Virus record (IMG/VR): IMGVR_UViG_3300030107_006751
Location: 1-24,763 of that record
DNA length: 24,763 bases
DNA from: a virus
Reading direction: 5' to 3' (one strand)
Shown here: positions 1 to 15,405 of the stretch, piece after piece
How the letters are laid out: the number at the start of each line of letters is the position of its first letter
How positions within the stretch are numbered: the first letter of the stretch is position 1
Notes under the pieces: generated by a model
Told to the model about the DNA's origin: nothing
Seen by the model: only the letters and a program-made list of their open reading frames with translations
Database searches by the model: none
Translations under genes and position numbers: made by a program

Positions 1-1481
1 TGGCCTTGATCTATGTGTTTTTGTCTTTGCGCTGCTTGAATGACTATCTCTTTTTGAGAAATCTCTCCAAAGGTTTTAAACACAGCTTTCTCTTTTTCCG
101 ATAGAAAGTCCAAGTGTTGAACAGATCCACCTTTAACCAGAATAGATTTCCAAGTTGTTTGAGTGTTCTTTTTCTTTTCTTCTAGTAATTGTTCTAGATA
201 TGGATTCTTGTAAGTGAATTTACCTTTAGCTAAGTCTTTAGTAAAATAATTACTATTAAGTGGCTCGATAGAGGGTGAGACTTGGCCCAAAATGAAAGAG
301 CTAGAAGTTGTGGGAGCGATAGCCATCGTAGTCATATTTCTTTTCCCATATCCCTTTAGATGTTCTGGCTCTTCAAATAATACAGCTAATTCTTTTGTAG
401 CTTTGTCGCACTTTTCTGAAATGGTTTGGTGGATTTCAGAATTCAAAAACTTAGCATCCATACTCTCAAAAGAAATCATTTTTGATTGCAAGTAAGAGTG
501 CCAACCCAATACCCCCAAGCCTAAAGCTCTCTGCCTTTTGGCAAAGTTATGAGAAGCTTGCATGAATGGGATATTCTCAGTTTTCTGGATATATTCCTCC
601 ATTACAGCGTCTAAAAAATAAGTCAGGGTTTCTACGGCATCCGTCTCTTTTATCTCGTCCCATTTCAAGAGATTAAGAGATGACAGACAGCAAACAAAAG
701 ACTCATCCTCTGAAGAGTGTAAGAAGATCTCACTACAAAGATTAGAAGCGTGAATTTTAAGACCCTTATCTTTGTAGGCACTGGGGGCATTGGCATTAGC
801 CGTATCTGTGAAAAAGATATAAGGATAGCCCGTTTCAAACCTTTTCTTAACTATACTAGCCCAAATAGATCTTTTCTTCCGATCACCATCAAGCATAGAC
901 CTCATCCACTCGTCAGTAATACAAACGCCAAAGGACATTTCTTGTATTGGATTGCCTTCCTCTCTAATTCTTAAAAACTCATTTATGTCTTTATGCTCTA
1001 CTGGTAGATAAGCGGCAAAAGATCCTCTTCTTACGTTGCTTTGCGAAACAACAGAAGTGACCTTATCAAAAAGCTCCATAAAGTGAATAGGTCCACTTGA
1101 TGTTCCACCAGCAGAAATATCTGCGCCTCTAGATCTCAATCCACCGAAGTAAGCGGATGTGCCCGACCCATGTTTAGTCTGCATACCTACTTCAGCCTGT
1201 TTATCAAGAATAGCATCCATACGATCTTCGATATAGACACCATTGCACGATATAGGGAGACCCCTTTCTCTGCCAAAGTTAGCCCAAATAGGACTCGATA
1301 AAGAATAAAATCCTTTAGAAAGATAATGCTCAAACTTTTCAGCAAACCCTTTTACTTTCAAAAGCTTCTCAGCAGCGACAGCAATGTCATGCCCTCGTTG
1401 CTCTGCTGACTCTCCAGCTTGCAAATAGCCTCTTTTTAAAAAATCTCTGGAGTCCTTGTTAAGCCACTTATATTTTTTCAT
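1..1481 (-). CDS. nrdA: Class I ribonucleotide reductase large (alpha) subunit, C-terminus cut off by the window edge
   Basis: This subunit reduces ribonucleoside diphosphates to deoxyribonucleotides in partnership with NrdB, supplying phage DNA synthesis. The frame is open from an ATG at 1481-1479 to the left edge (about 493 codons). Visible family signatures are SLSSPIW (60-66), PISCNG with the redox Cys at about residue 79, the active-site NLCSE (247-251; radical Cys249, Glu251), the second redox cysteine region VCCLSSLNL (263-271), APTTSSS, and SPSIEPLNSN followed by RQKHIDQGQ. The protein begins almost directly at the catalytic core, so the N-terminal ATP-cone found in E. coli NrdA is absent, which predicts loss of overall activity control by dATP. 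The radical-transfer tyrosines and C-terminal cysteines lie outside the window. The ATG overlaps the nrdB stop by one base (TGATG), indicating translational coupling. No intein is seen. Confidence 0.95.
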   Translation of the reverse strand, partial: MKKYKWLNKDSRDFLKRGYLQAGESAEQRGHDIAVAAEKLLKVKGFAEKFEHYLSKGFYSLSSPIWANFGRERGLPISCNGVYIEDRMDAILDKQAEVGMQTKHGSGTSAYFGGLRSRGADISAGGTSSGPIHFMELFDKVTSVVSQSNVRRGSFAAYLPVEHKDINEFLRIREEGNPIQEMSFGVCITDEWMRSMLDGDRKKRSIWASIVKKRFETGYPYIFFTDTANANAPSAYKDKGLKIHASNLCSEIFLHSSEDESFVCCLSSLNLLKWDEIKETDAVETLTYFLDAVMEEYIQKTENIPFMQASHNFAKRQRALGLGVLGWHSYLQSKMISFESMDAKFLNSEIHQTISEKCDKATKELAVLFEEPEHLKGYGKRNMTTMAIAPTTSSSFILGQVSPSIEPLNSNYFTKDLAKGKFTYKNPYLEQLLEEKKKNTQTTWKSILVKGGSVQHLDFLSEKEKAVFKTFGEISQKEIVIQAAQRQKHIDQG

Positions 1482-2452
1482 CAAAAAAGATCGTCAGCAT
1501 CAAATGTTTGCGAATTTTTAGAATACTCTACGGGACGAGAGTGAAAGAAGTCTGTAGCATTGTTGCCCATCAGTTCTTCTTCGAACCACATTGTATCTTC
1601 CAGAAAGGAAGTGTCAACTTCGAACGCAGAAGAAAACCCGATTTTTTCTAAAGAATCATTGATACGATTTTTGATAAACTCTTTTAAAATATTTGCGTTT
1701 AGACCTGTCTCGTTAAAACCATTTACCATCCAATCAATTATCTTGCTTTCTGCTACGAAAGCAGCTTGCGCCTCATGAGCTATCCTCTCCTCAAGCTCTT
1801 CATCGAAAAGATCTGGGTGCTCGCTTCTAATAGTGTTGATAATCTTGATACCAGCAAGCGCATGAATGTTTTCCTCATTTCTGGTATACTTGACTTGCTG
1901 CCCAGTATCTTTCAACACATTCCTGTAGCGATTAAACCAGTTAACAATGTAGAACTGACTAAACAAAGAGACATTCTCCACAAACAAAGTAAAAAGAATT
2001 AGCGCGTAAACATACTGCTTCTTAGAATCCTTGTAGAACTTATGGGTATACTTCCTCAAATATTTAACACGACCCTCGATGAAATCTAGCTTCAGATTTT
2101 CTTCAAAAACATCCTCTAGCCCCAAAACTTTTAGAAGTCTCTCGTAAGCGTTATTGTGAATCACTTCCACGTTAGCCATAACGTAACCTAAGTCGGTCAA
2201 GCTCGGATGAGGCAAGTTGTCTCCCAACTTACTCCAAAACTTCTTGACAGCGACCTCTATCTGCCCAATCGCAGATAAAGTCCTGATTATCATCTCTCTT
2301 TCATTATCATTGAGGTTCACATTAAAGTCCTGAATATCACTACTAAAGCTAAATTCTTTGTCGGTCCAAAACCCATTGTGCATCGCCTCGATGAACTCCT
2401 GCGCCCACTCGTAATGGTCGGGCTTCCTTGATACTTGCTCTTCAAAAATCAT
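1481..2452 (-). CDS. nrdB: Class I ribonucleotide reductase small (beta) subunit
   Basis: This is the radical-generating dimetal subunit that partners NrdA. The 323-residue protein has the ferritin-like ligand set: Glu66 (QIEVAVK), Glu96 and His99 with the radical Tyr103 (EVIHNNAY), Glu159 (FVEN), and Glu194 with His197 (EENIH). The first ligand is Glu, where E. coli NrdB has Asp84; known subgroups also use Glu. The radical tyrosine is kept, so this is not the tyrosine-less Chlamydia type. The tail ends FDADDLF, an acidic aromatic C-terminus of the kind that binds the alpha subunit. It is the first gene of its unit, with nrdA coupled behind it. The ATG at 2452 has no Shine-Dalgarno sequence: the bases before it read TCTCCTTTAAG. 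Confidence 0.95.
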   Translation of the reverse strand: MIFEEQVSRKPDHYEWAQEFIEAMHNGFWTDKEFSFSSDIQDFNVNLNDNEREMIIRTLSAIGQIEVAVKKFWSKLGDNLPHPSLTDLGYVMANVEVIHNNAYERLLKVLGLEDVFEENLKLDFIEGRVKYLRKYTHKFYKDSKKQYVYALILFTLFVENVSLFSQFYIVNWFNRYRNVLKDTGQQVKYTRNEENIHALAGIKIINTIRSEHPDLFDEELEERIAHEAQAAFVAESKIIDWMVNGFNETGLNANILKEFIKNRINDSLEKIGFSSAFEVDTSFLEDTMWFEEELMGNNATDFFHSRPVEYSKNSQTFDADDLF

Positions 2453-2697: not shown

Positions 2698-3270
2698 GTG
2701 CAAAGCGATCTCACATTAATTGACAAAATAAAAAGCGAGAACGACGATCAGAGCTTGATAGAATTAATAGATAGACACTCTGGGATTTACCATACAATGG
2801 TTAACCAATATTTATCGTCACCACGATACAGCATCGACAAAAGACAGGCTGTAAAAGAAAAAGATTACGTAATCTACAATTCTGCGGTTAGCTTTGACCC
2901 AAACAGGAAAACAAAGTTTTCGACATATTTAGCAAATCAAGCTAAATGGAAATGTCTCAACATTCTTAACAAGAAGAAACGCGAGAATGAATATTCCATA
3001 GAGGAAATGTCTTTTAGTCAAGAACCCTCTGATGACTCGTTTATAAAGCAAATAAACAAAGAAGAGGCTTTTTCTTTGTTCCAAACTATTTTAAATAAAG
3101 AAAAAGATCTTAGGATTAAAAAGATAATTGACTTAAGGTATAACGTGGACAACAATAAACTCACCCCTTGGAGAAAAATTTCAGAATCTCTTGACATGAG
3201 TATCCAAGGATGTATAAACATCCACAATCGGTTTATTAACAAAGTAAAAAAAGAACTTAATTATGTTTAA
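2698..3270 (+). CDS. Phage-encoded RNA polymerase sigma-like factor
   Basis: This 190-residue protein looks like a small sigma-70-family factor that would redirect host RNA polymerase to phage promoters. The segment around residues 56-84, with the motif SFDPNRKTKFSTYLANQAKW, matches sigma region 2.3/2.4 (compare FDP..G.KFSTYA in bacterial factors). A variable lysine-rich linker follows. Residues 135-187 form a region-4-like helix-turn-helix (RIKKIIDLRYN, then PWRKISESLDMSIQG). Sigma regions 1 and 3 are missing. Size is close to T4 gp55, but gp55 lacks a full region 4. GTG is the only reasonable start because an in-frame TGA lies at 2689-2691; no good Shine-Dalgarno is present. It is first in the operon and overlaps the SSB gene by 8 bases. 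Promoter specificity cannot be read from the sequence. Confidence 0.72.
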   Translation: MQSDLTLIDKIKSENDDQSLIELIDRHSGIYHTMVNQYLSSPRYSIDKRQAVKEKDYVIYNSAVSFDPNRKTKFSTYLANQAKWKCLNILNKKKRENEYSIEEMSFSQEPSDDSFIKQINKEEAFSLFQTILNKEKDLRIKKIIDLRYNVDNNKLTPWRKISESLDMSIQGCINIHNRFINKVKKELNYV

Positions 3271-3619
3271 TTCAGTAACAGCAGCAGCGTATCTCGTAAA
3301 AGATCCAGAAGTAAGGAACACTAAGTCTGGTTCTAAAGTAGTTAATCTTAGAGCTGGTATCTCATCGGCAAACGCAAAAACAAAATGTTTTGTAGATATC
3401 GAGTTTTGGGACAAGACCGCTGAGATTGCGGAAAAGTATCTTACTAAAGGTCGTGAGTTTATGGTGCAAGGAGAACTTTGCATGTCTTCTTGGGAAAAAG
3501 ACGGGAAAAATTTTAGTAAGTATTTTATCAGAGGCAAAGATCTTCAGTTCTTGAGTTCTAAGAAGAAAGAGGATTCTGGTAGCGAGAGTCAAGAGGATGA
3601 TATTGAAGTGCCCTTTTAA
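3263..3619 (+). CDS. ssb: Single-stranded DNA-binding protein
   Basis: SSB coats single-stranded DNA during phage replication and recombination. The 118-residue protein has a bacterial-type OB fold: a start like FNSVTAAAYLVKDPEVR, a strand with FVDIEFWDK (43-51), AEKYLTKGREFMVQGEL (57-72), and an aromatic basic strand ending in YFIRGKDLQFL. A short, Ser/Gln/acid-rich tail closes with DDIEVPF, the conserved acidic tip by which SSB recruits partner proteins. It starts inside the end of the sigma-like gene (8-base overlap) and its TAA overlaps the next ATG by one base (TAATG), so the three genes are probably translationally coupled. Confidence 0.9.
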   Translation: MFNSVTAAAYLVKDPEVRNTKSGSKVVNLRAGISSANAKTKCFVDIEFWDKTAEIAEKYLTKGREFMVQGELCMSSWEKDGKNFSKYFIRGKDLQFLSSKKKEDSGSESQEDDIEVPF

Positions 3620-4704
3620 TGAAATTACTTCTAGAGGCTCCTATAAATAGGTTAAGCTTTGGTAATGTTTCATATAACTTTATCAGAGAGCTAAAAAAGC
3701 TAGATGTAGATCTAGGAATATTTCCTATTGGTGATCTAAATCAGCTAGATCTATCTGCTTTTGATCCTGAAGAGGACACTAAGCAATACATTGAGGACTG
3801 TATAAATAAAAGATGGGACTATCTAGACCCTTTGGTGCCCTCTCTAAAATTATGGCACCTTAACGGTAGCGATAATAGAAAAAACCCATCTCAATACCTT
3901 TATACTTTCTATGAGTGTAATCAACCTACACAGATAGAAAAACAAATAGCTCTTGTCCAAGACAAAGTTATCTTTAGTTCAAAATACGCAGCAGATCATT
4001 TTAGAGAGGCTGGGGTAGAACTAGCCATGAATATACCTCTTGGTTTTGATAAGGACTTCTTTAGGACAGAAAAGACATATCTAAAAGATACAATCCATTT
4101 TGGGTTGATGGGTAAGTTTGAAAATAGAAAGCACACTCAAAAAATCATCAAAGCTTGGTTAAAAAAATATGGTAACAACAATAAGTATCAGCTTACCTGT
4201 TGTGTAAATAATCCATTTTTTAATGAGCAACAAATGACAGGCTTAATAGCTGACACTTTGCAAGGTAACCATTACAATAACATAAATTTTTTGCCGATGT
4301 TAGAAAAGAATGCAGAAGTAAATGAGTTGCTTAATTCTATAGATATCGACTTGACTGGACTGTCTGGGGGTGAAGGCTGGAATCTTCCTGCTTTCAACGC
4401 TACCTGTCTTGGTAAATGGAGTGTAGTTTTAGATGCGACATCTCACAAAGATTGGGCTAACAATAATAATTCTATATTAATACAACCATCTGGTGAGATT
4501 CCTGTGCAAGATGGTGTTTTCTTCTCTGCTGACTCAACCTTTAATCGAGGGACTTTCTATACTTGGAAAGAGGATGAGGCTATTTCAGCTATGGAAAAAG
4601 CTGAACAAAAAGCAGGACAACTTAACACAGAGGGTCAAAAGTTGGCAGAAGAAATGACATACTCTAAAACTGTAGAGCAAATTTTAGCTGTAATTAACGC
4701 ATAA
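3619..4704 (+). CDS. GT-B glycosyltransferase (GT4-like)
   Basis: This is probably a nucleotide-sugar-dependent glycosyltransferase of 361 residues. The N-terminal half (1-150) carries acceptor-domain-like segments, including KLWHLNGSD and VIFSSKYAADHFREAGV. The C-terminal donor domain begins at FGLMGKFENRKHTQKIIKAW (161-180) and includes GLSGGEGWNLPAF (247-259), equivalent to the EGFGLP motif. In canonical GT4 enzymes the EX7E pair follows; here the first Glu is Glu252, but the eighth position after it is Asn260, so the second Glu is missing. The enzyme may glycosylate DNA, virion proteins or host surface polysaccharide; the sequence does not decide. No signal peptide or membrane segment is seen. 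It sits between SSB and a small heat shock protein, joined to SSB by TAATG. Confidence 0.75.
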   Translation: MKLLLEAPINRLSFGNVSYNFIRELKKLDVDLGIFPIGDLNQLDLSAFDPEEDTKQYIEDCINKRWDYLDPLVPSLKLWHLNGSDNRKNPSQYLYTFYECNQPTQIEKQIALVQDKVIFSSKYAADHFREAGVELAMNIPLGFDKDFFRTEKTYLKDTIHFGLMGKFENRKHTQKIIKAWLKKYGNNNKYQLTCCVNNPFFNEQQMTGLIADTLQGNHYNNINFLPMLEKNAEVNELLNSIDIDLTGLSGGEGWNLPAFNATCLGKWSVVLDATSHKDWANNNNSILIQPSGEIPVQDGVFFSADSTFNRGTFYTWKEDEAISAMEKAEQKAGQLNTEGQKLAEEMTYSKTVEQILAVINA

Positions 4705-4720
4705 AATTATGGCATAAATA

Positions 4721-5050
4721 ATGTTAAGTATTAGTATGAACTTAATTGAATCATTTTTTAATACAACAGATCACATGAAAACAGAACATCCAGTCATTGA
4801 CGCAGGAGACGTTTACAAAATGGAGCTAGAGTTAGCTGGTTTTGGCAAAGAAGATGTTAAGATAAAAGTTCTTGATGATATTCTATATGTTAATGCTAAA
4901 AACGAGGACAGATCACAGAAGTTTAGGTTGCGTTTGAATAATAGTGTTTCAGACAAACACATTGATGCAGTTCTTAAAAATGGCTTGCTTAAACTGACGC
5001 TGCCTAAAAGAGCTGTAGCTGAAAGCACTGAGATAGAAATAAAAACATAA
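4721..5050 (+). CDS. Small heat shock protein (Hsp20 / alpha-crystallin family)
   Basis: This ATP-independent holdase chaperone keeps unfolded proteins soluble. The 109-residue protein is mostly an alpha-crystallin domain (about 27-98): VYKMELELAGFGKEDVKIKV near the start and the family signature GLLKLTLPKR near the end. The N-terminal arm is very short, ending in ESFFNTTDHM. T4-like cyanophages are known to carry hsp20 genes. A second Met (position 6, at 4736) is an equally good start; neither has a Shine-Dalgarno. The gene follows the glycosyltransferase by 16 bases, which contain a two-codon ATG-GCA-TAA at 4709-4717. Its TAA overlaps the next ATG (TAATG). It could aid folding of virion proteins or protect host proteins. 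Confidence 0.88.
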   Translation: MLSISMNLIESFFNTTDHMKTEHPVIDAGDVYKMELELAGFGKEDVKIKVLDDILYVNAKNEDRSQKFRLRLNNSVSDKHIDAVLKNGLLKLTLPKRAVAESTEIEIKT

Positions 5051-8295: not shown

Positions 8296-11200
8296 TTATA
8301 CTCTTCTTAATGATCCACCTAATCTTTTCTCGTCATCAATAGTTTGTTTTACAACATCTTTGATCTTCTTAGCTAGTCCTTGTTGTTGTTCGTCACCACC
8401 ACCCTCTTGGTTTTCTGAGCCATCAGAATTTACAGTGATGTTTATCACCGTTTCTCCACTGTTTTGTGTTACAGCTATAAGCTCGTCCAGTCTTGCTACG
8501 ACAGCCTCTTTGCCTTCGCCGCCGCCTCCACCAGCGTTTGCAGCCGCTAAGTTACCAGCGCCTATTCTCTGCGTAGCAGCAGCGTTCATAACAAACTCAC
8601 CACCAGAGAGCATACTAGGAACATTATCAATGCCAGCTCTTGGAGAAACGTAACCACCAGTCGCTCTTTTCAATGGATCAGGCAGAGGCATTCCCTGAAG
8701 ATCAAGAGGTATAGTATCAGTGCCATCAGGATTAAGCATAGGTAACACTGGATAATCGAAATCAAAGCCACCTCTACTATCACCTAAGTCTATTATATTT
8801 TGTGGTGATATACCTGATCTAGCCCCGAGAGAACCTCCTCTACTCAACACACTTGAAGCGCCACCGACAGGCAGAGCGCTTAAAATTGATTTTTGATTTG
8901 GGTTAGGTTTCGGAATTTTATTGAAAATTTTGTTGGTGACACCTTTTAAAGCAGTTGCCGCTACCAATCCTATAACTGAAGCCAATAAACCTTTTCTTTG
9001 CTGTTTGGCTCTTTCTCTCTCTTGTTGTTCTAATTGCTCTTGTCTTACAAAGAGTCCAAATGCTGCGCGTTTAGATTCTTGTTCTCTTTGGAACATCGGG
9101 CTATTCGCACGACCAAAGGAGGTCAACCTGCCGCTTTGTGGTTCTAAGGATGCAAAGCCTAAGCCTCCACCACCACCTATGCGATCAAAGGCACCTCCAG
9201 TAAATGATTGTGTAGCAAAGCTGAGTAAATTAGATTTACCTGTTATAGCTCCTTGTCCGAAAGTTCCTGGGGTAAACATACCGCCAGTCTGCATACCACC
9301 AACACGACCAGCGTTAAGAGCTGCCATAAACTCAGGGCCGTATCTTTGCACAGCGCTTTTTCTCATCACAAACTCACCACCAGTTAAGAGAGTGGGAACA
9401 TCATCTCTTGTTCCAGATCCACCTCTAATCATACCGCCAGAGTTTTTTGTGTTGTTAAAGAAATCTGCAAAACCACCCATTATACCCCCGATACCTGTGC
9501 CTCCGACTATATCATTTACAGCACTTTGCATCAATGCTTGAGACATCATGCCAGCAAAGTTAGCTGCCGCACTCATAAGAGCGTCTCCTAAATCACCACC
9601 TCTAGCAATGGCATCAACCATAGCTGAACCTATGTTTTGAGCGAATGTTTCAGATGCAGTAATTAAGGAATCACTTAATTGGTTTGTTTCATTTAGTCTT
9701 CTAAGATCCGATAAAGCTTGACCTTTATCTGTGGTCATTGTAATTATACCTCTTTCATCTCTTGAAAAGTTTCTATTAAAGAATTCTCTTTGTCTTCTTG
9801 TATTCTGCAAGATTCTAGCATTACCAAAAGCACTAGCTCCTGTTTTTCCTCTAAACCTTTGTTCAGCTCTTCCTGTAAAAATAGAGTCTGCTTGATTAAT
9901 TAATAAGTCTGAGAGATTTTGAGTTTGTAAATTTTCCTTTAGTCTGAGCGCTGCCAGATTTAGTAGTTTAGACGAATCAGCTGCTCGATCTAGTTCGTCA
10001 CTACTAATTTTCAAACCACTTTCAACACCTAGTATATTTTCAATTAATGCGCTCAAACCAGCATTTAAAGCTTTGCTCAAAGCAGGATGAGTAACGATTT
10101 TATCTGTGACAATTAATGCTTTAGCCAAATCCTTTCTTGTTTTCTCTAACTGTTTAAGAGTTTGACTAGTTGTTAAACCGCTAAAGATTTCAGAAGCAGT
10201 CTGACCAAATAGATTATCCATCATAGTATTCATTGCATCCGAGCCTCCTAAAACTCCTATAGCTTGACTCGCAGCGCTTCTATCTAGGTCTCTTCGACCT
10301 AATTGTGTTTCTAGATCGCCTTGCCTGATTCTAGATCGCAATATCTCTAATTCAGCAGCTCTTTGAGCGGAAACATTAGGTCTAGCATTCGCAAGCGCAC
10401 TTTGTTGGAAAAGAAGTTCTTTATCTATAGCTCCTCTATCTTTTAAATCTGCGGTTGCTCTGTTAGCATTAGCCACTCTCTCTGCTTGTTTAGCTGAAAT
10501 CTGTAACAATAAATTTTCTACTCTGATCTGTTCGTTAAGATCTTTTTTCGCTTTTAATCTGTCATTATCAGTTACTAAATTAGCTTTTGATACTGCCAAA
10601 GCATCAAACAAGCCATCTATCTGTCCTCTTAATTCTCTACCTTGCTTGTCTACTATTCCCTCTGCTTTTGTTAGTAAATCTAAACGAGCAGATTCAAGAT
10701 TTGCCTGATCCCCAGTAAGTCCATTTATTAATTTTAATAAATCTGCTTCATCTTTCTTTGTTACATCTAAAGCTTTGCCTAAATTAACGATTTTGCCAAC
10801 TGTATCTAGCACTGCGTTGTTTATGGACACACTAGTTTTCTCATCCATAACTTTTTTCTCAGCATCATGTATTAGACGTTTTCTAATTGGCTCTTCAGAC
10901 TGGAGGAGCGTTAGTGAATCTTCGGCATCTTCTAAAGAAGCCTTATTAAGTTTTGCCATCTCTTTAGCAAACTCAACTCTTCGTTTAAACTCTTGGTTAG
11001 CGAGTCTTAATTCTTCCGCAGCCATATCTTCAAGATTTAAGCTTTCACCTAAATTTGCGGCCAACTCTTTAGCCGCGACACCTCGGAACTGTGTGCCGAA
11101 TCTATCTTCTATGTCTTGTCTAGCAGACCGAACTCCTCCATCTATACCTCCTTCTCTAAACGCTGAAGGGAAAAATATTTGTGCAGCATTATCTGGAACA

Positions 11201-14200
11201 AGATCTGGTCTTGATTTTCTAACTTTTGCGATTTGAACTTCTTTCTTTTCTTGCGAAACTTTTAATTTGGCGACTTCTGCCTCAAAAGCTAATTGTTTAC
11301 CAAACGCTTCTAATTCTTTTTGAGGAATAGATCTGGCAATCTCATCAGCTACTTTTTTGAAATTTTCTGCTCCTATATTGTCTAACTGTTTTAAAGCTCC
11401 TTCAAAAGTCTCTTCACTCATCGGTCCAATCTTTCTAACAGCCAAAGGACCGATGCCTTTCCTAGTTTGTCCAGCTTCAAACAGAGTATCTATTATTGCA
11501 TTAACTTGAGCAGTTCTCCCTCCACCTTCAGGACCAAGTAATGGATTAGCTAAAGCTCGGGCTATTGATTCATTTAAAGTTTGCCTAGCCTTTTCATCGT
11601 CCCCTGGAAATACATTTGTTCCTATTGGACCAGTGCTCCTATCTCCTATAAATGGAGTTTGTCTAGCAATTCCTTCTGCTATATTAAGCAGTCCCCCACC
11701 AAGTCCCTTCAAAAGTCCTTCGCCACCTACAAGACCAAGCTCCTCTGCAAGAGTAGCATCTTGAATTTTACCTAAAGTTGTCGCAGAGGTTCCTACAAGC
11801 CTTTGACTTAATTTGTTCGCTTTTATTAATGACTCTTTTTGTAATCTACCTTCCAATTCTTCAGATAAATTAAGTTTACCTAATTGTTTCTCGAAACGAA
11901 CTTGCGATTCTTTAGATGCTAGATCTCTTCTTTCAGATTCTGCTGCTCGGCCACTTAAAACTTCAAATGCTTTTGATAAACCAACAGCCGCTGCTGCTAA
12001 CAAACCTAAAGGACCAAGCACTCTTGTAACTGCGCCACCCAATCCTTTTAGTAAGTTAAGACTCTGCGCTCCAGCTCCTTTGCCGATAAGTCCTCTAGCT
12101 CCTCCTCCTGCTGCGAAAGAAGCACTAGCACTACTCAGAATGTCTGCTCCCATTCGACCTGTTGCAAACCTGCCAACATTTTTAATTCCAAAACTTGAGG
12201 TAACAAAAGCAGCTGACATTGCTACGTTTAAAGCTGTCATAGCAGCAGACATAGCCTTGCTTTGATTTGTCATTTCACCCATAACAGGTGTCAACATCAT
12301 AAATGCTGCTTGAACAGCGAAGATTTTCGTTAATAAATCTCCAGCCCCCCTACCGCCACCAGCACTAGCGGCGACTCTTGCAGTGTTTTGAGCCATTCTT
12401 TGATTCGCTCCTGTGTCTAAAGGCATTATACCACCCTGCATCCCTGCTCCAAAATAATTTGGTATAAAACCTTTGGCAGCATTTGGAATAGCACCAGTAG
12501 GCTCATCTCGCATATTCGTCACAGCAAGACCCATTGGGTTTCCAGCGTTTCTTAGTGAGGAATCTTGATTAATTCTGATCTGATTTATTGGTAACCCAGC
12601 CGCAGATTCTCTTGCGATAGCTTGGTCTAAAGCTCCCATCGCAAAGTTAGGTATGTATCCACCAGCAGCTCTTCCACGTTTTTTCTGAGCGCGAGTGGCT
12701 CTGGCAAGAATAAATTTACGCTCACTAGGATCATTTAAAGCTTTAAATATTAATGACTGAACAGCAGAATTAGAAGCCGTTCTTTTTCCATCTGCTCTAA
12801 ACAAAGAATCAGTGAAACCAAAACTTCTTCTAAAAGCTTGATCTGCTCTTCCTCCTTCTTCAAAGTCAAAAGGCTCTCTTTCTGCTTCATGGCTTTTAAA
12901 CTCTTTTATGCTTTTCGCACCTTGAGTAACCATTCTTATTGCTGACTCAAAAATACCACCCTCTACAGAGGTGCTAAATAAACCTGCGCTTTTATTCTTT
13001 TTTATTAAGTTATTTAACTGTTTATCTATTGCTAAAGCCTCATCATTATTAAACGGAATATCTACAAGCTCACTGCCATATTGAAGTAAAGGTGCGGCGA
13101 ATAACCTGCCAATTTTTCTACGGTTTTCTGTTTCAGACATACCCCGCTTCATATTCCTCTGCATAGTTTGCAGATCAGAAACTTGCACACCACTAAATCT
13201 TATACCTGTAAATCCTCTTTTTAATAATTCTTGCGCTCCTACTGATTCACTGCCAGCAAGATTTGCAGATGTAATATCAGTTTTCTTACTGGGGAACATC
13301 GCTGCGACACCATATCTTGCTCCAGGAATCTCTAAAATACTTTGACCGCCCCCTCTTCCGAAAACATTTTTAGCTTGCGCTTCAGTAACTTTTACCCCAC
13401 CTATGACCCTAGTTGCCCCTGTCCCAGATAGCGCTCTAAATTGTTCCATATTGGTTATACCCGCTCCTCTTAAAGCGCCAGCAGGACCAACTGCAAAGTT
13501 AGGTATAAACCCTCCAGCCGCACCAATACTCTTAGCTCCAGCTGGCATCCCCATAGAAGATACCATGTTCTGATTAAATATCGCAGTGCCTCCTGTGCCA
13601 GCAAAGTTAGGCACCATAAACTCACTAGTATTAGCGACCATTGTGCCTCGCTGTCCTCCACCAAAATTAAAGTTCGGTATAGCAACAGCTCTAGCAGATC
13701 TTGGAGCACCGCCAACACCTCTAGCTATGTCAGAACTTTCAGCAGCGAAGTTAGGAGCGTAACCCATAACTGCATTATAGCTTGGAATAAATCCACCAGC
13801 TCCTCTACCAAAAGCACCCCTACCTCTTGTTGAGGCCATAACTCCAGGTGCTACTTTAGCTGCTATGCCTTGCATTGTTTGCATTACAGAGAGCTGTTCC
13901 CTAAGCGCCGTGGTGAAAAATTTTGTTTGTTGTGCTTTCTTCTCTTCAGCACTTATTTGCTTTCTTTCTATCGCTAGAATAGCATCTTGAACTCCTTTAT
14001 TATTTAAAAGAGTAGATGCTATTTGTCCTTGAAGAGTAGCTTGTTCCTTAGCTGCTTTGTTTATACCAAAGAAAGTTTGTAAGGAGCCAACTCCAAACTT
14101 TGCTAAGTCAGCAGTCAACTTTAAAATTATAGCTCCAAATATAGCTAACCCAGGTCCAGAGAGAACATTTCCTATTCCTTTAACTATACCCTTTGCAAAC

Positions 14201-15315
14201 TTACTGCCTATACTATCACCTTCTAAAACTTTGTTTATGTTTTCTGCTAATCCACTAAAGAAACCAACAATAGTTTTTAATTGATCAGTTACTCCAATCT
14301 TACCTAGAGTATCAAATAACTCTTTTAAATTAACTGTCGCTGAATTAATAGCTGCTGCTAATGTCTTGTTTAAGGCTTCATTACGTTCATAAGCTGCTGT
14401 AGAAGCGTTTTGTGAAATTTGTGTTAACTTAATAGCAATTGATTGCTGATCGTTAAAGTCTTCCAAAATAGAAACAAAAGGTGCCACTTGGAATTTACCG
14501 ACTAAATCCTCTGCTATTTGAAGTTGTTTTGCTTCAGGTAAATCTTGAATTGAAGCAGCTAAGTTTTTTATCAACTGTGTTGCGTTTAATATTTCACCAG
14601 AAGCATCAGTTACCTGCACTCCTAAATTCTGCATTGTTTCCAACTTATCCAGACTTTGTAGTCTAGTAAAAATTGTTTTAAATGAGTTACCAATAACAGC
14701 TCCTCCCCTTGAGGTCTTTTGCTGCACAGCACTGACAATACCCGCCAACTCATCAAAGCTGACACCAGCTTGTCCTGCCACAGCACCAGCTCGCTTAAAA
14801 GCTTCTGCCAAATCCCTCTCAGATACCGCAGCGTTCTTTGCAGCCTCTGAAAACTTGTTAACTACTTGTGTGCTTGTTATTCCTGATTTTTTAAATCCGT
14901 TGATAGCTGAAGTTAAACCTGCAACGGCTTCAGCGGCTCCTTGACCAGAGAGTCGGGCTAATATTAAAGCATCATTTAATCTTCCTGTTACTTCTTCAGC
15001 TGATAAACCTTGCCTACTTAACTCTAATGCTGCTTCAGCTACAGTGGAAAAAGATTGCTCTGTATTTCTAGCAACATCAAATATGGCCCCTTTGAATCTA
15101 TTTAGTTCCCCAGTTGTCTTACCTAAGATGGCATTGATAGCTGCCATTGATTTTTCGACCTCAATTGTCGTTGTGACAAGATCTTTAAAACCTTGAGTTA
15201 CAGCATTTAAAACTCCAACAGACGCACCGAAAGCTAACACCCTTGCGTTAGCGGCTTCCATTGATTTAGTGAACTGATCAGCTTTACCAGTTATTCTACC
15301 GAGAGGTTGGGACAA
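8296..15315 (-). CDS. Tail tape measure protein (TP901 family), very long, with embedded domains
   Basis: The 2,339-residue protein sets tail length, plugs the tube and helps DNA entry. The TP901-type core (about 45-240) includes EVEKSMAAINAILGKTTGEL, FDVARNTEQSFSTVAEAALE and SRGGAVIGNSFKTIFTRLQS. Hydrophobic helices lie near 385-408, 992-1015, 1095-1120 and 2108-2130. Residues 500-960 hold repeated GG[FY]IPNFA-type motifs around a possible PD-(D/E)xK region (623-880). Residues 1150-1750 are charged and helical. Two GGEFVM repeats occur near 1979 and 2238. The first standard start codon is the TTG at 15315, but the frame is open to a TAA at 15396-15394 and the extra 26 codons read like tape measure (NLKLNLGTNAKSIEG). 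The true N-terminus probably lies upstream at a non-standard codon such as ATA 15393 or 15390. Confidence 0.93.
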   Translation of the reverse strand: MSQPLGRITGKADQFTKSMEAANARVLAFGASVGVLNAVTQGFKDLVTTTIEVEKSMAAINAILGKTTGELNRFKGAIFDVARNTEQSFSTVAEAALELSRQGLSAEEVTGRLNDALILARLSGQGAAEAVAGLTSAINGFKKSGITSTQVVNKFSEAAKNAAVSERDLAEAFKRAGAVAGQAGVSFDELAGIVSAVQQKTSRGGAVIGNSFKTIFTRLQSLDKLETMQNLGVQVTDASGEILNATQLIKNLAASIQDLPEAKQLQIAEDLVGKFQVAPFVSILEDFNDQQSIAIKLTQISQNASTAAYERNEALNKTLAAAINSATVNLKELFDTLGKIGVTDQLKTIVGFFSGLAENINKVLEGDSIGSKFAKGIVKGIGNVLSGPGLAIFGAIILKLTADLAKFGVGSLQTFFGINKAAKEQATLQGQIASTLLNNKGVQDAILAIERKQISAEEKKAQQTKFFTTALREQLSVMQTMQGIAAKVAPGVMASTRGRGAFGRGAGGFIPSYNAVMGYAPNFAAESSDIARGVGGAPRSARAVAIPNFNFGGGQRGTMVANTSEFMVPNFAGTGGTAIFNQNMVSSMGMPAGAKSIGAAGGFIPNFAVGPAGALRGAGITNMEQFRALSGTGATRVIGGVKVTEAQAKNVFGRGGGQSILEIPGARYGVAAMFPSKKTDITSANLAGSESVGAQELLKRGFTGIRFSGVQVSDLQTMQRNMKRGMSETENRRKIGRLFAAPLLQYGSELVDIPFNNDEALAIDKQLNNLIKKNKSAGLFSTSVEGGIFESAIRMVTQGAKSIKEFKSHEAEREPFDFEEGGRADQAFRRSFGFTDSLFRADGKRTASNSAVQSLIFKALNDPSERKFILARATRAQKKRGRAAGGYIPNFAMGALDQAIARESAAGLPINQIRINQDSSLRNAGNPMGLAVTNMRDEPTGAIPNAAKGFIPNYFGAGMQGGIMPLDTGANQRMAQNTARVAASAGGGRGAGDLLTKIFAVQAAFMMLTPVMGEMTNQSKAMSAAMTALNVAMSAAFVTSSFGIKNVGRFATGRMGADILSSASASFAAGGGARGLIGKGAGAQSLNLLKGLGGAVTRVLGPLGLLAAAAVGLSKAFEVLSGRAAESERRDLASKESQVRFEKQLGKLNLSEELEGRLQKESLIKANKLSQRLVGTSATTLGKIQDATLAEELGLVGGEGLLKGLGGGLLNIAEGIARQTPFIGDRSTGPIGTNVFPGDDEKARQTLNESIARALANPLLGPEGGGRTAQVNAIIDTLFEAGQTRKGIGPLAVRKIGPMSEETFEGALKQLDNIGAENFKKVADEIARSIPQKELEAFGKQLAFEAEVAKLKVSQEKKEVQIAKVRKSRPDLVPDNAAQIFFPSAFREGGIDGGVRSARQDIEDRFGTQFRGVAAKELAANLGESLNLEDMAAEELRLANQEFKRRVEFAKEMAKLNKASLEDAEDSLTLLQSEEPIRKRLIHDAEKKVMDEKTSVSINNAVLDTVGKIVNLGKALDVTKKDEADLLKLINGLTGDQANLESARLDLLTKAEGIVDKQGRELRGQIDGLFDALAVSKANLVTDNDRLKAKKDLNEQIRVENLLLQISAKQAERVANANRATADLKDRGAIDKELLFQQSALANARPNVSAQRAAELEILRSRIRQGDLETQLGRRDLDRSAASQAIGVLGGSDAMNTMMDNLFGQTASEIFSGLTTSQTLKQLEKTRKDLAKALIVTDKIVTHPALSKALNAGLSALIENILGVESGLKISSDELDRAADSSKLLNLAALRLKENLQTQNLSDLLINQADSIFTGRAEQRFRGKTGASAFGNARILQNTRRQREFFNRNFSRDERGIITMTTDKGQALSDLRRLNETNQLSDSLITASETFAQNIGSAMVDAIARGGDLGDALMSAAANFAGMMSQALMQSAVNDIVGGTGIGGIMGGFADFFNNTKNSGGMIRGGSGTRDDVPTLLTGGEFVMRKSAVQRYGPEFMAALNAGRVGGMQTGGMFTPGTFGQGAITGKSNLLSFATQSFTGGAFDRIGGGGGLGFASLEPQSGRLTSFGRANSPMFQREQESKRAAFGLFVRQEQLEQQERERAKQQRKGLLASVIGLVAATALKGVTNKIFNKIPKPNPNQKSILSALPVGGASSVLSRGGSLGARSGISPQNIIDLGDSRGGFDFDYPVLPMLNPDGTDTIPLDLQGMPLPDPLKRATGGYVSPRAGIDNVPSMLSGGEFVMNAAATQRIGAGNLAAANAGGGGGEGKEAVVARLDELIAVTQNSGETVINITVNSDGSENQEGGGDEQQQGLAKKIKDVVKQTIDDEKRLGGSLRRV
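12450..13800 (-). repeat. Degenerate IPNFA-type peptide repeats within the tape measure gene
   Basis: Copies, by approximate tape measure residue: GGFIPSYN (506), GYAPNFA (520), FMVPNFAGTGG (567), GGFIPNFAVG (601), GGYIPNFAMG (884) and KGFIPNYFG (946). The core is G-G-aromatic-I/V-P-N-F-A with variable spacing, in Gly/Ala-rich linkers. They are too diverged at DNA level to be recent tandem duplications. The two widest-spaced copies flank the possible nuclease-like region. They may be interdomain linkers, processing sites or tube contacts. Confidence 0.7.
12678..13449 (-). other. Candidate PD-(D/E)xK-like domain inside the tape measure protein
   Basis: Between the IPNFA motifs at about 601 and 884 is a region that does not look like tape measure coiled coil. 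It begins MEQFRALSGTGATRVIGG (623) and includes a mixed alpha/beta stretch (RLFAAPLLQYGSELVDIP). It then shows Glu790 in a helix (GGIFESAIRMV), Asp817 in PFDFEE, and Asp842-Gly-Lys844 in LFRADGKRT. A helix SNSAVQSLIFKAL follows. The spacing E-27-D-25-DxK and the element order fit the PD-(D/E)xK nuclease superfamily. This is a pattern judgement without a profile search; a degenerate or unrelated fold is possible. Confidence 0.42.
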
Positions 15316-15405
15316 ACCTTCGATACTTTTTGCGTTGGTGCCTAAATTTAATTTTAAATTACGCCCTGCTCTCTTTGCTGCGGCTTGTATTATTTACACA
15401 AAGAT

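Follow-up and report, generated by a model that had tools for sequence, protein, structure and literature searches.

Does the tape measure protein (TMP) of a phage carry, within its own chain, an enzyme that would enter the cell together with the phage DNA? TMPs lie inside the tail tube and leave it with the phage DNA, entering the envelope or the cell, and an earlier note on a virus record from IMG/VR had proposed that a mixed alpha/beta segment of the TMP, lying between two IPNFA motifs, is a PD-(D/E)xK nuclease-like region with Glu790, Asp817, Asp842 and Lys844 as its active-site residues. We refer to the whole stretch of DNA that was analysed, 24,763 bases long, as the window; residue and coordinate numbers follow this window and its TMP.

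The tape measure protein and its internal slot

The 2,339-aa product of the longest feature listed below matches Pfam PhageMin_Tail (E=4.7e-33) and the PHROG TMP families (E down to 7.7e-42), its N-terminal part is matched by 246 isolate phage records, and judged by these matches it is a tape measure protein. The segment singled out earlier, aa 623-880 (window 12676-13449, minus strand), does lie inside this protein and between the two motifs: GGFIPNFA precedes it (IPNF at aa 604-607) and GGYIPNFA follows it (IPNF at aa 888-891), with the shared pattern GG[F/Y]IPNFA. Translation likewise places the four residues where the earlier note had put them, with Glu790 in the context GGIFE, Asp817 in PFDFE, and Asp842 and Lys844 in RADGK. 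The gene, the parts of the slot between the motifs and the neighbouring genes in the window are as follows.

8296..15315, minus strand: TMP gene, which carries the cassette; 2,339 aa, starting with TTG
13495..13722, minus strand: upstream anchor (aa 532-607), a conserved flank of the slot with the first separator, GGFIPNF, at its end; TMPs share ~77% identity here on average
12661..13494, minus strand: exchangeable cassette (aa 608-885) with a PD-(D/E)xK-type active-site signature, as judged from sequence comparison of slots
12475..12657, minus strand: downstream anchor (aa 887-947), the other conserved flank of the slot, with the second separator, GYIPNF, at its start; again ~77% identity on average among TMPs
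1481-2452, minus strand: ribonucleotide reductase small subunit gene, a neighbour in the window
3263-3619, plus strand: SSB gene, a neighbour in the window
3619-4704, plus strand: glycosyltransferase gene, a neighbour in the window
4721-5050, plus strand: Hsp20 gene, a neighbour in the window

Searches of IMG/VR with the window segment returned 3 loci first and 14 later. When the segment was compared with 84,980 species genomes, a single contig was matched (L016, CALFSW010000038.1), which comes from a Verrucomicrobiales MAG and encodes this TMP with a cassette of the same type; it is either a misbinned phage contig or a hint of the host, and the cassette was absent from the other 194 of the 195 genomes of its phylum that were searched. 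Five cassette queries against 50,697 isolate phage records gave zero matches. An alignment of 15 sequences, reaching down to ~20% identity, left as invariant a lone Gly, VEGGIFE with the next Ala, DFE, DxKR and one later Lys.

Since the flanks of the slot are far better conserved than the segment itself, we used them as anchors to fetch further loci. Both anchors were present in 162 TMP reading frames, from loci that overlap, and the slots comprised 94 distinct non-empty sequences, which form 48 clusters at 50% identity and 93 of which (93/94) were joined by blastp as one superfamily. The sole outlier, the slot of L148, keeps the same motif, with the helix Glu replaced by Asp. Apparently empty slots in three loci were rejected as an artefact of overlapping anchor hits. 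A scan of the loci examined with the slot-family profile gave matches inside TMPs only, with no stand-alone copy of the cassette among these loci, and a scan with another subfamily led to TMPs again, with flanking IPNF motifs in each of the new loci checked (3/3).

Exchange of the cassette between close relatives

TMP pairs that are 92-93% identical in their N-terminal part and 83-100% identical in the anchors may share just 22-28% identity in the slot, and among the 251 pairs with an N-terminal identity of at least 75%, slot identity fell below 35% in 193. The same breaks are visible in the DNA. Between L139 and L140, an identity of 80% runs up to base 10227, which is the end of the upstream anchor at its IPNF codons, and the alignment resumes from 10943, a few codons from the downstream motif. 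In L140, the slot is short, at 207 aa. Between L031 and the window, identity is 93.7% over 13508-15387, the slot is unalignable, and similarity returns, at 89%, at position 12678; L030 and L110 break against the window in the same pattern. In these comparisons, the TMP segment spanning aa 608-885 is an exchangeable cassette bounded by IPNF separators, and this exchange, which is absent from the earlier note, is the most striking property of the region. The separators at the two slot ends are themselves alike in DNA (~70% over 30 bases, and 80% in the window), a likeness that could help recombination.

The TMP past the downstream anchor (about 9646-12481 in the window) is also unalignable in DNA against the close relative L031, and the first 300 aa after this anchor have a median protein identity of 31%, nearly as divergent as the slot, implying that the cassette is one of several variable parts of the TMP and not the sole one. 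Slot copies that are still similar are under purifying selection, with a median dN/dS of 0.35 over 28 pairs.

We saw no neighbouring gene swapping with the cassette in the comparisons of L139, L140 and L138 and of L163 with L160, which covered stretches of up to ~10 kb on each side: the remaining ~18-20 kb of the first three loci are largely alignable, save for a ~250-base patch at the start of one ORF, and the upstream 10.2 kb of the other two are continuous. In L139 and L140, the gene after the TMP (L139:13613-16885, 1,090 aa; L140:13577-17485, 1,302 aa) has many internal repeats, which are 62-72% identical in DNA, varies in length between these close relatives, and perhaps encodes a repetitive tail protein.

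Polymorphic toxins are known to replace whole effector domains while the carrier stays conserved, and in them an adjacent immunity gene is exchanged too. The cassette resembles these toxins in being swapped on a conserved TMP carrier, with its breakpoints at the separators and with slots and carriers diverging to the degrees given above, but it lies within the chain and not at the C-terminus, and we saw no swapping of an immunity gene beside it. As no neighbour was seen to co-swap, the adjacent immunity gene that is a feature of polymorphic toxins does not appear within the stretches compared.

A putative active site and its predicted fold

To the main alignment of 87 distinct slot segments of at most 300 aa, the window contributes the following codons, listed with the residues that occupy their positions across the alignment.

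12958..12960, minus strand: Gly786 codon; Gly in 87/87 slot segments
12946..12948, minus strand: Glu790 codon; 84 E and 3 D of 87; predicted helix
12865..12867, minus strand: Asp817 codon; Asp in 87/87 slot segments
12790..12792, minus strand: codon of position 842 (Asp842); 49 D and 38 E of 87; start of the (D/E)xK motif; predicted strand
12784..12786, minus strand: Lys844 codon; Lys in 87/87; end of the (D/E)xK motif

The residues proposed as catalytic are kept in homologous TMPs, those at 790 and 842 as E or D, and Asp817 and the lysine without exception. When one representative was taken for each of 42 clusters (50% identity), with D and E merged, only 5 of the 173 usable columns were fully conserved, namely Gly786, Glu790, Asp817, position 842 and Lys844. 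Position 842 is Asp in 25 of these representatives and Glu in 17, and over the 42 clusters the spacing ranges from 18 to 31 residues between Glu and Asp and from 21 to 36 between Asp and the (D/E)xK motif. On these counts, the four-residue pattern in the slot exceeds chance.

The active-site pattern of PD-(D/E)xK enzymes consists of a helix Glu, then an Asp, then a D or E two places ahead of an invariant Lys. The alternation of D and E at position 842 with a fixed x-Lys, following Glu and Asp, therefore points to a PD-(D/E)xK active-site signature, and the invariant Glu, Asp and (D/E)xK occur in this order, with the lysine fixed, in all 87 segments and 42 clusters. The conservation pattern thus strongly supports the four residues as a putative active site.

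A first AlphaFold model, built on 4 aligned sequences, was poor (pLDDT 52); a second, built on 90 aligned sequences, is confident (pLDDT 87.7, pTM 0.77) and agrees with the earlier description of the segment as mixed alpha/beta. It places Glu790 in a helix (aa 782-798), Asp817 in a loop and Asp842-x-Lys844 in a strand (aa 840-846), with a helix between Asp817 and the DxK strand and one strand only after the Glu helix. The core fold of PD-(D/E)xK enzymes is alpha-beta-beta-beta-alpha-beta, with the active residues in one pocket, and the few strands predicted after the Glu helix, together with the predicted helix before the DxK strand, are the main points against plain membership of this superfamily.

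Searches for a known family or fold returned nothing that would decide the matter. Foldseek, which the earlier note had named as one route to a PD-(D/E)xK match in PDB, found none there or in BFVD with E below 1 when given the confident model, and a VIA second look at the same model gave short helical matches only. Scans of Pfam, PHROG, NCBIfam and PADLOC with up to 90 members of the cassette family gave chance-level matches only, and a sequence profile search of PDB with the cassette gave no match. A weak similarity to Ntox15 (E=0.17, in two members only) was set aside. HHalign comparisons with UPF0102, Mrr_cat, two PDDEXK_1 alignments and VRR_NUC, run with 19 decoys, stayed at background; the known families missed each other too, save for one close pair, so that this comparison is uninformative.

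The cassette thus has the active-site order of the PD-(D/E)xK superfamily (e.g. Mrr_cat, PF04471, and UPF0102, PF02021), with helix Glu, Asp, (D/E)xK and invariant Lys, and differs from it in matching no member by sequence, profile or fold, in the helix modelled between Asp817 and the DxK strand, and in sitting inside a TMP. Of the nuclease-like region suggested by the earlier note, the motif and its invariance stand, whereas a family match and a structural match did not emerge. Membership of the superfamily is in this sense partly supported, by the motif, with the fold a candidate only.

An enzyme of a different kind, with a new fold around an E/D/(D/E)xK metal site, such as a phosphodiesterase of nucleotides or signalling molecules or a TMP-processing enzyme, would fit a confident model that lacks a fold match, a topology past the Glu helix unlike the plain PD-(D/E)xK core, and the lack of a family match. 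We nevertheless consider it unlikely, given that PD-(D/E)xK nucleases typically show this very order, E - D - (D/E)xK, and let D and E alternate at the third position only.

Proposed delivery, precedents and meaning

The cassette is most likely a swappable, divergent PD-(D/E)xK-type nuclease that would be freed into the cell alongside the phage DNA. To this reading in its full form, in which the cassette is a self-contained, exchangeable, divergent and metal-dependent nuclease domain of PD-(D/E)xK type that acts on DNA in the cell after entering with the phage DNA, we give a somewhat better than even chance. The predicted metal site would be formed by the helix residue Glu790, by Asp817 and by Asp842-x-Lys844. 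General TMP biology leads us to infer that the cassette would accompany the DNA into the envelope or cytoplasm. On the cytoplasmic side it may fold, or be released at the IPNF separators, and would then cut or nick DNA, most likely that of the host or of a competitor. The pattern of swaps suggests an opponent that itself keeps changing, and exchange may be driven by host DNA modification, inhibitors, rival elements or another such counterpart. As no neighbour was seen to co-swap, self-harm would probably be averted by specificity, tethering, delayed folding or a single dose, and not by a dedicated immunity protein.

Instead of acting in the cell that is being infected, a nuclease-type cassette could have its task in the virion or in the cell that produces it, as in the joining of head and tail or at the end of the phage genome itself. 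The same active-site evidence would apply to such an enzyme, and the TMP adjoins the genome end in many siphophages, but an enzyme that always performed one step on the genome of its own phage should need no wholesale swapping between near-identical phages, and we regard this role as quite unlikely. Least probable is a fast-evolving structural or length-setting part of the TMP with no enzymatic activity, as TMP middle regions do vary and the ~300 aa past the downstream anchor are also very variable, yet in the slot the catalytic-type residues are invariant while nearly all else changes, the model is mixed alpha/beta and selection is purifying.

For a nuclease on a TMP-like carrier, there is a precedent in Tme, the TMP-related effector of contractile injection systems in Streptomyces davawensis; its EndA-type domain, at the C-terminus, is an active endonuclease (PMC11126660). 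Both Tme and the window protein would be TMP-like carriers with a nuclease domain, Tme being loaded in a tail-like particle (PMC11126660) and the nuclease nature of the cassette being deduced from its signature. Tme belongs to a bacterial injection system and has just the one C-terminal domain of EndA type, marked by DRGH and H-N-N motifs, whereas the cassette is internal and exchangeable, has the E/D/(D/E)xK signature and is encoded by a phage. Phages and conjugative elements also have polyvalent proteins, multidomain effectors predicted to enter cells with DNA, DNases included (PMC5512222); the text of that report names no TMP carriers, and among the curated families searched, none matched the cassette family. 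In mycobacteriophage TM4, a peptidoglycan hydrolase motif embedded in the TMP aids infection (PMC1796659); that motif targets the cell wall, whereas the cassette has the signature of a nucleic-acid enzyme and is swapped among close relatives.

The window TMP carries one cassette, and a few relatives add P-loop or more nuclease-like modules. In the 2,712-aa TMP of L015, two copies of the slot-family domain are present (residues 736-896 and 1181-1273). In four loci, the cassette is preceded by one more module set between IPNF motifs, with the Walker-A sequence APAGAGKS/T or GPAGSGKST (L169:3331-3816, L150:10226-10723, L170:10226-10717 and the start of L164:10763-11902); the two of these four modules that were scanned resemble AAA_30 weakly, with E=0.0013-0.004, below the cut-off. 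Further separator-bounded segments, whose motifs resemble PD-(D/E)xK sites in their own right, occur at L156:10226-10723 (for example SVDGYKIKGSSIDLLEVKSG), L164:10226-10762 and L015:9418-10446, and have no Pfam match. The presence of extra P-loop and E/D/(D/E)xK-like modules in some relatives fits a reading of the slot as a place for cargo. We put this forward tentatively, at a little less than an even chance, as a general model: in an uncultivated tailed-phage lineage, the TMP would serve as a cartridge, with an IPNF-bounded internal slot for rapidly exchanged PD-(D/E)xK-type nucleases, and occasionally other enzymes, that would be released into the cell at DNA entry without dedicated immunity genes.

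The new part is the exchangeable cassette inside a tape measure protein; in the open-licence literature, to which our search was confined, we found no report of phage TMPs that contain nuclease cassettes or modules bounded by IPNF motifs. If the preferred reading is true, TMPs would, besides serving as ruler and conduit, carry fast-evolving enzymes into the cell to act at the very start of infection, for which, to our knowledge, few phage counter-measures have been described. The slot would then give studies of what enters the cell besides phage DNA a definite starting point, and its sequences would make up a large natural collection of divergent, nuclease-like domains (48 clusters at 50% identity), none of which matches curated families in the libraries searched. 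That related phages swap these modules while keeping their catalytic-type residues suggests a variable DNA-acting enzyme that would be delivered with the genome.
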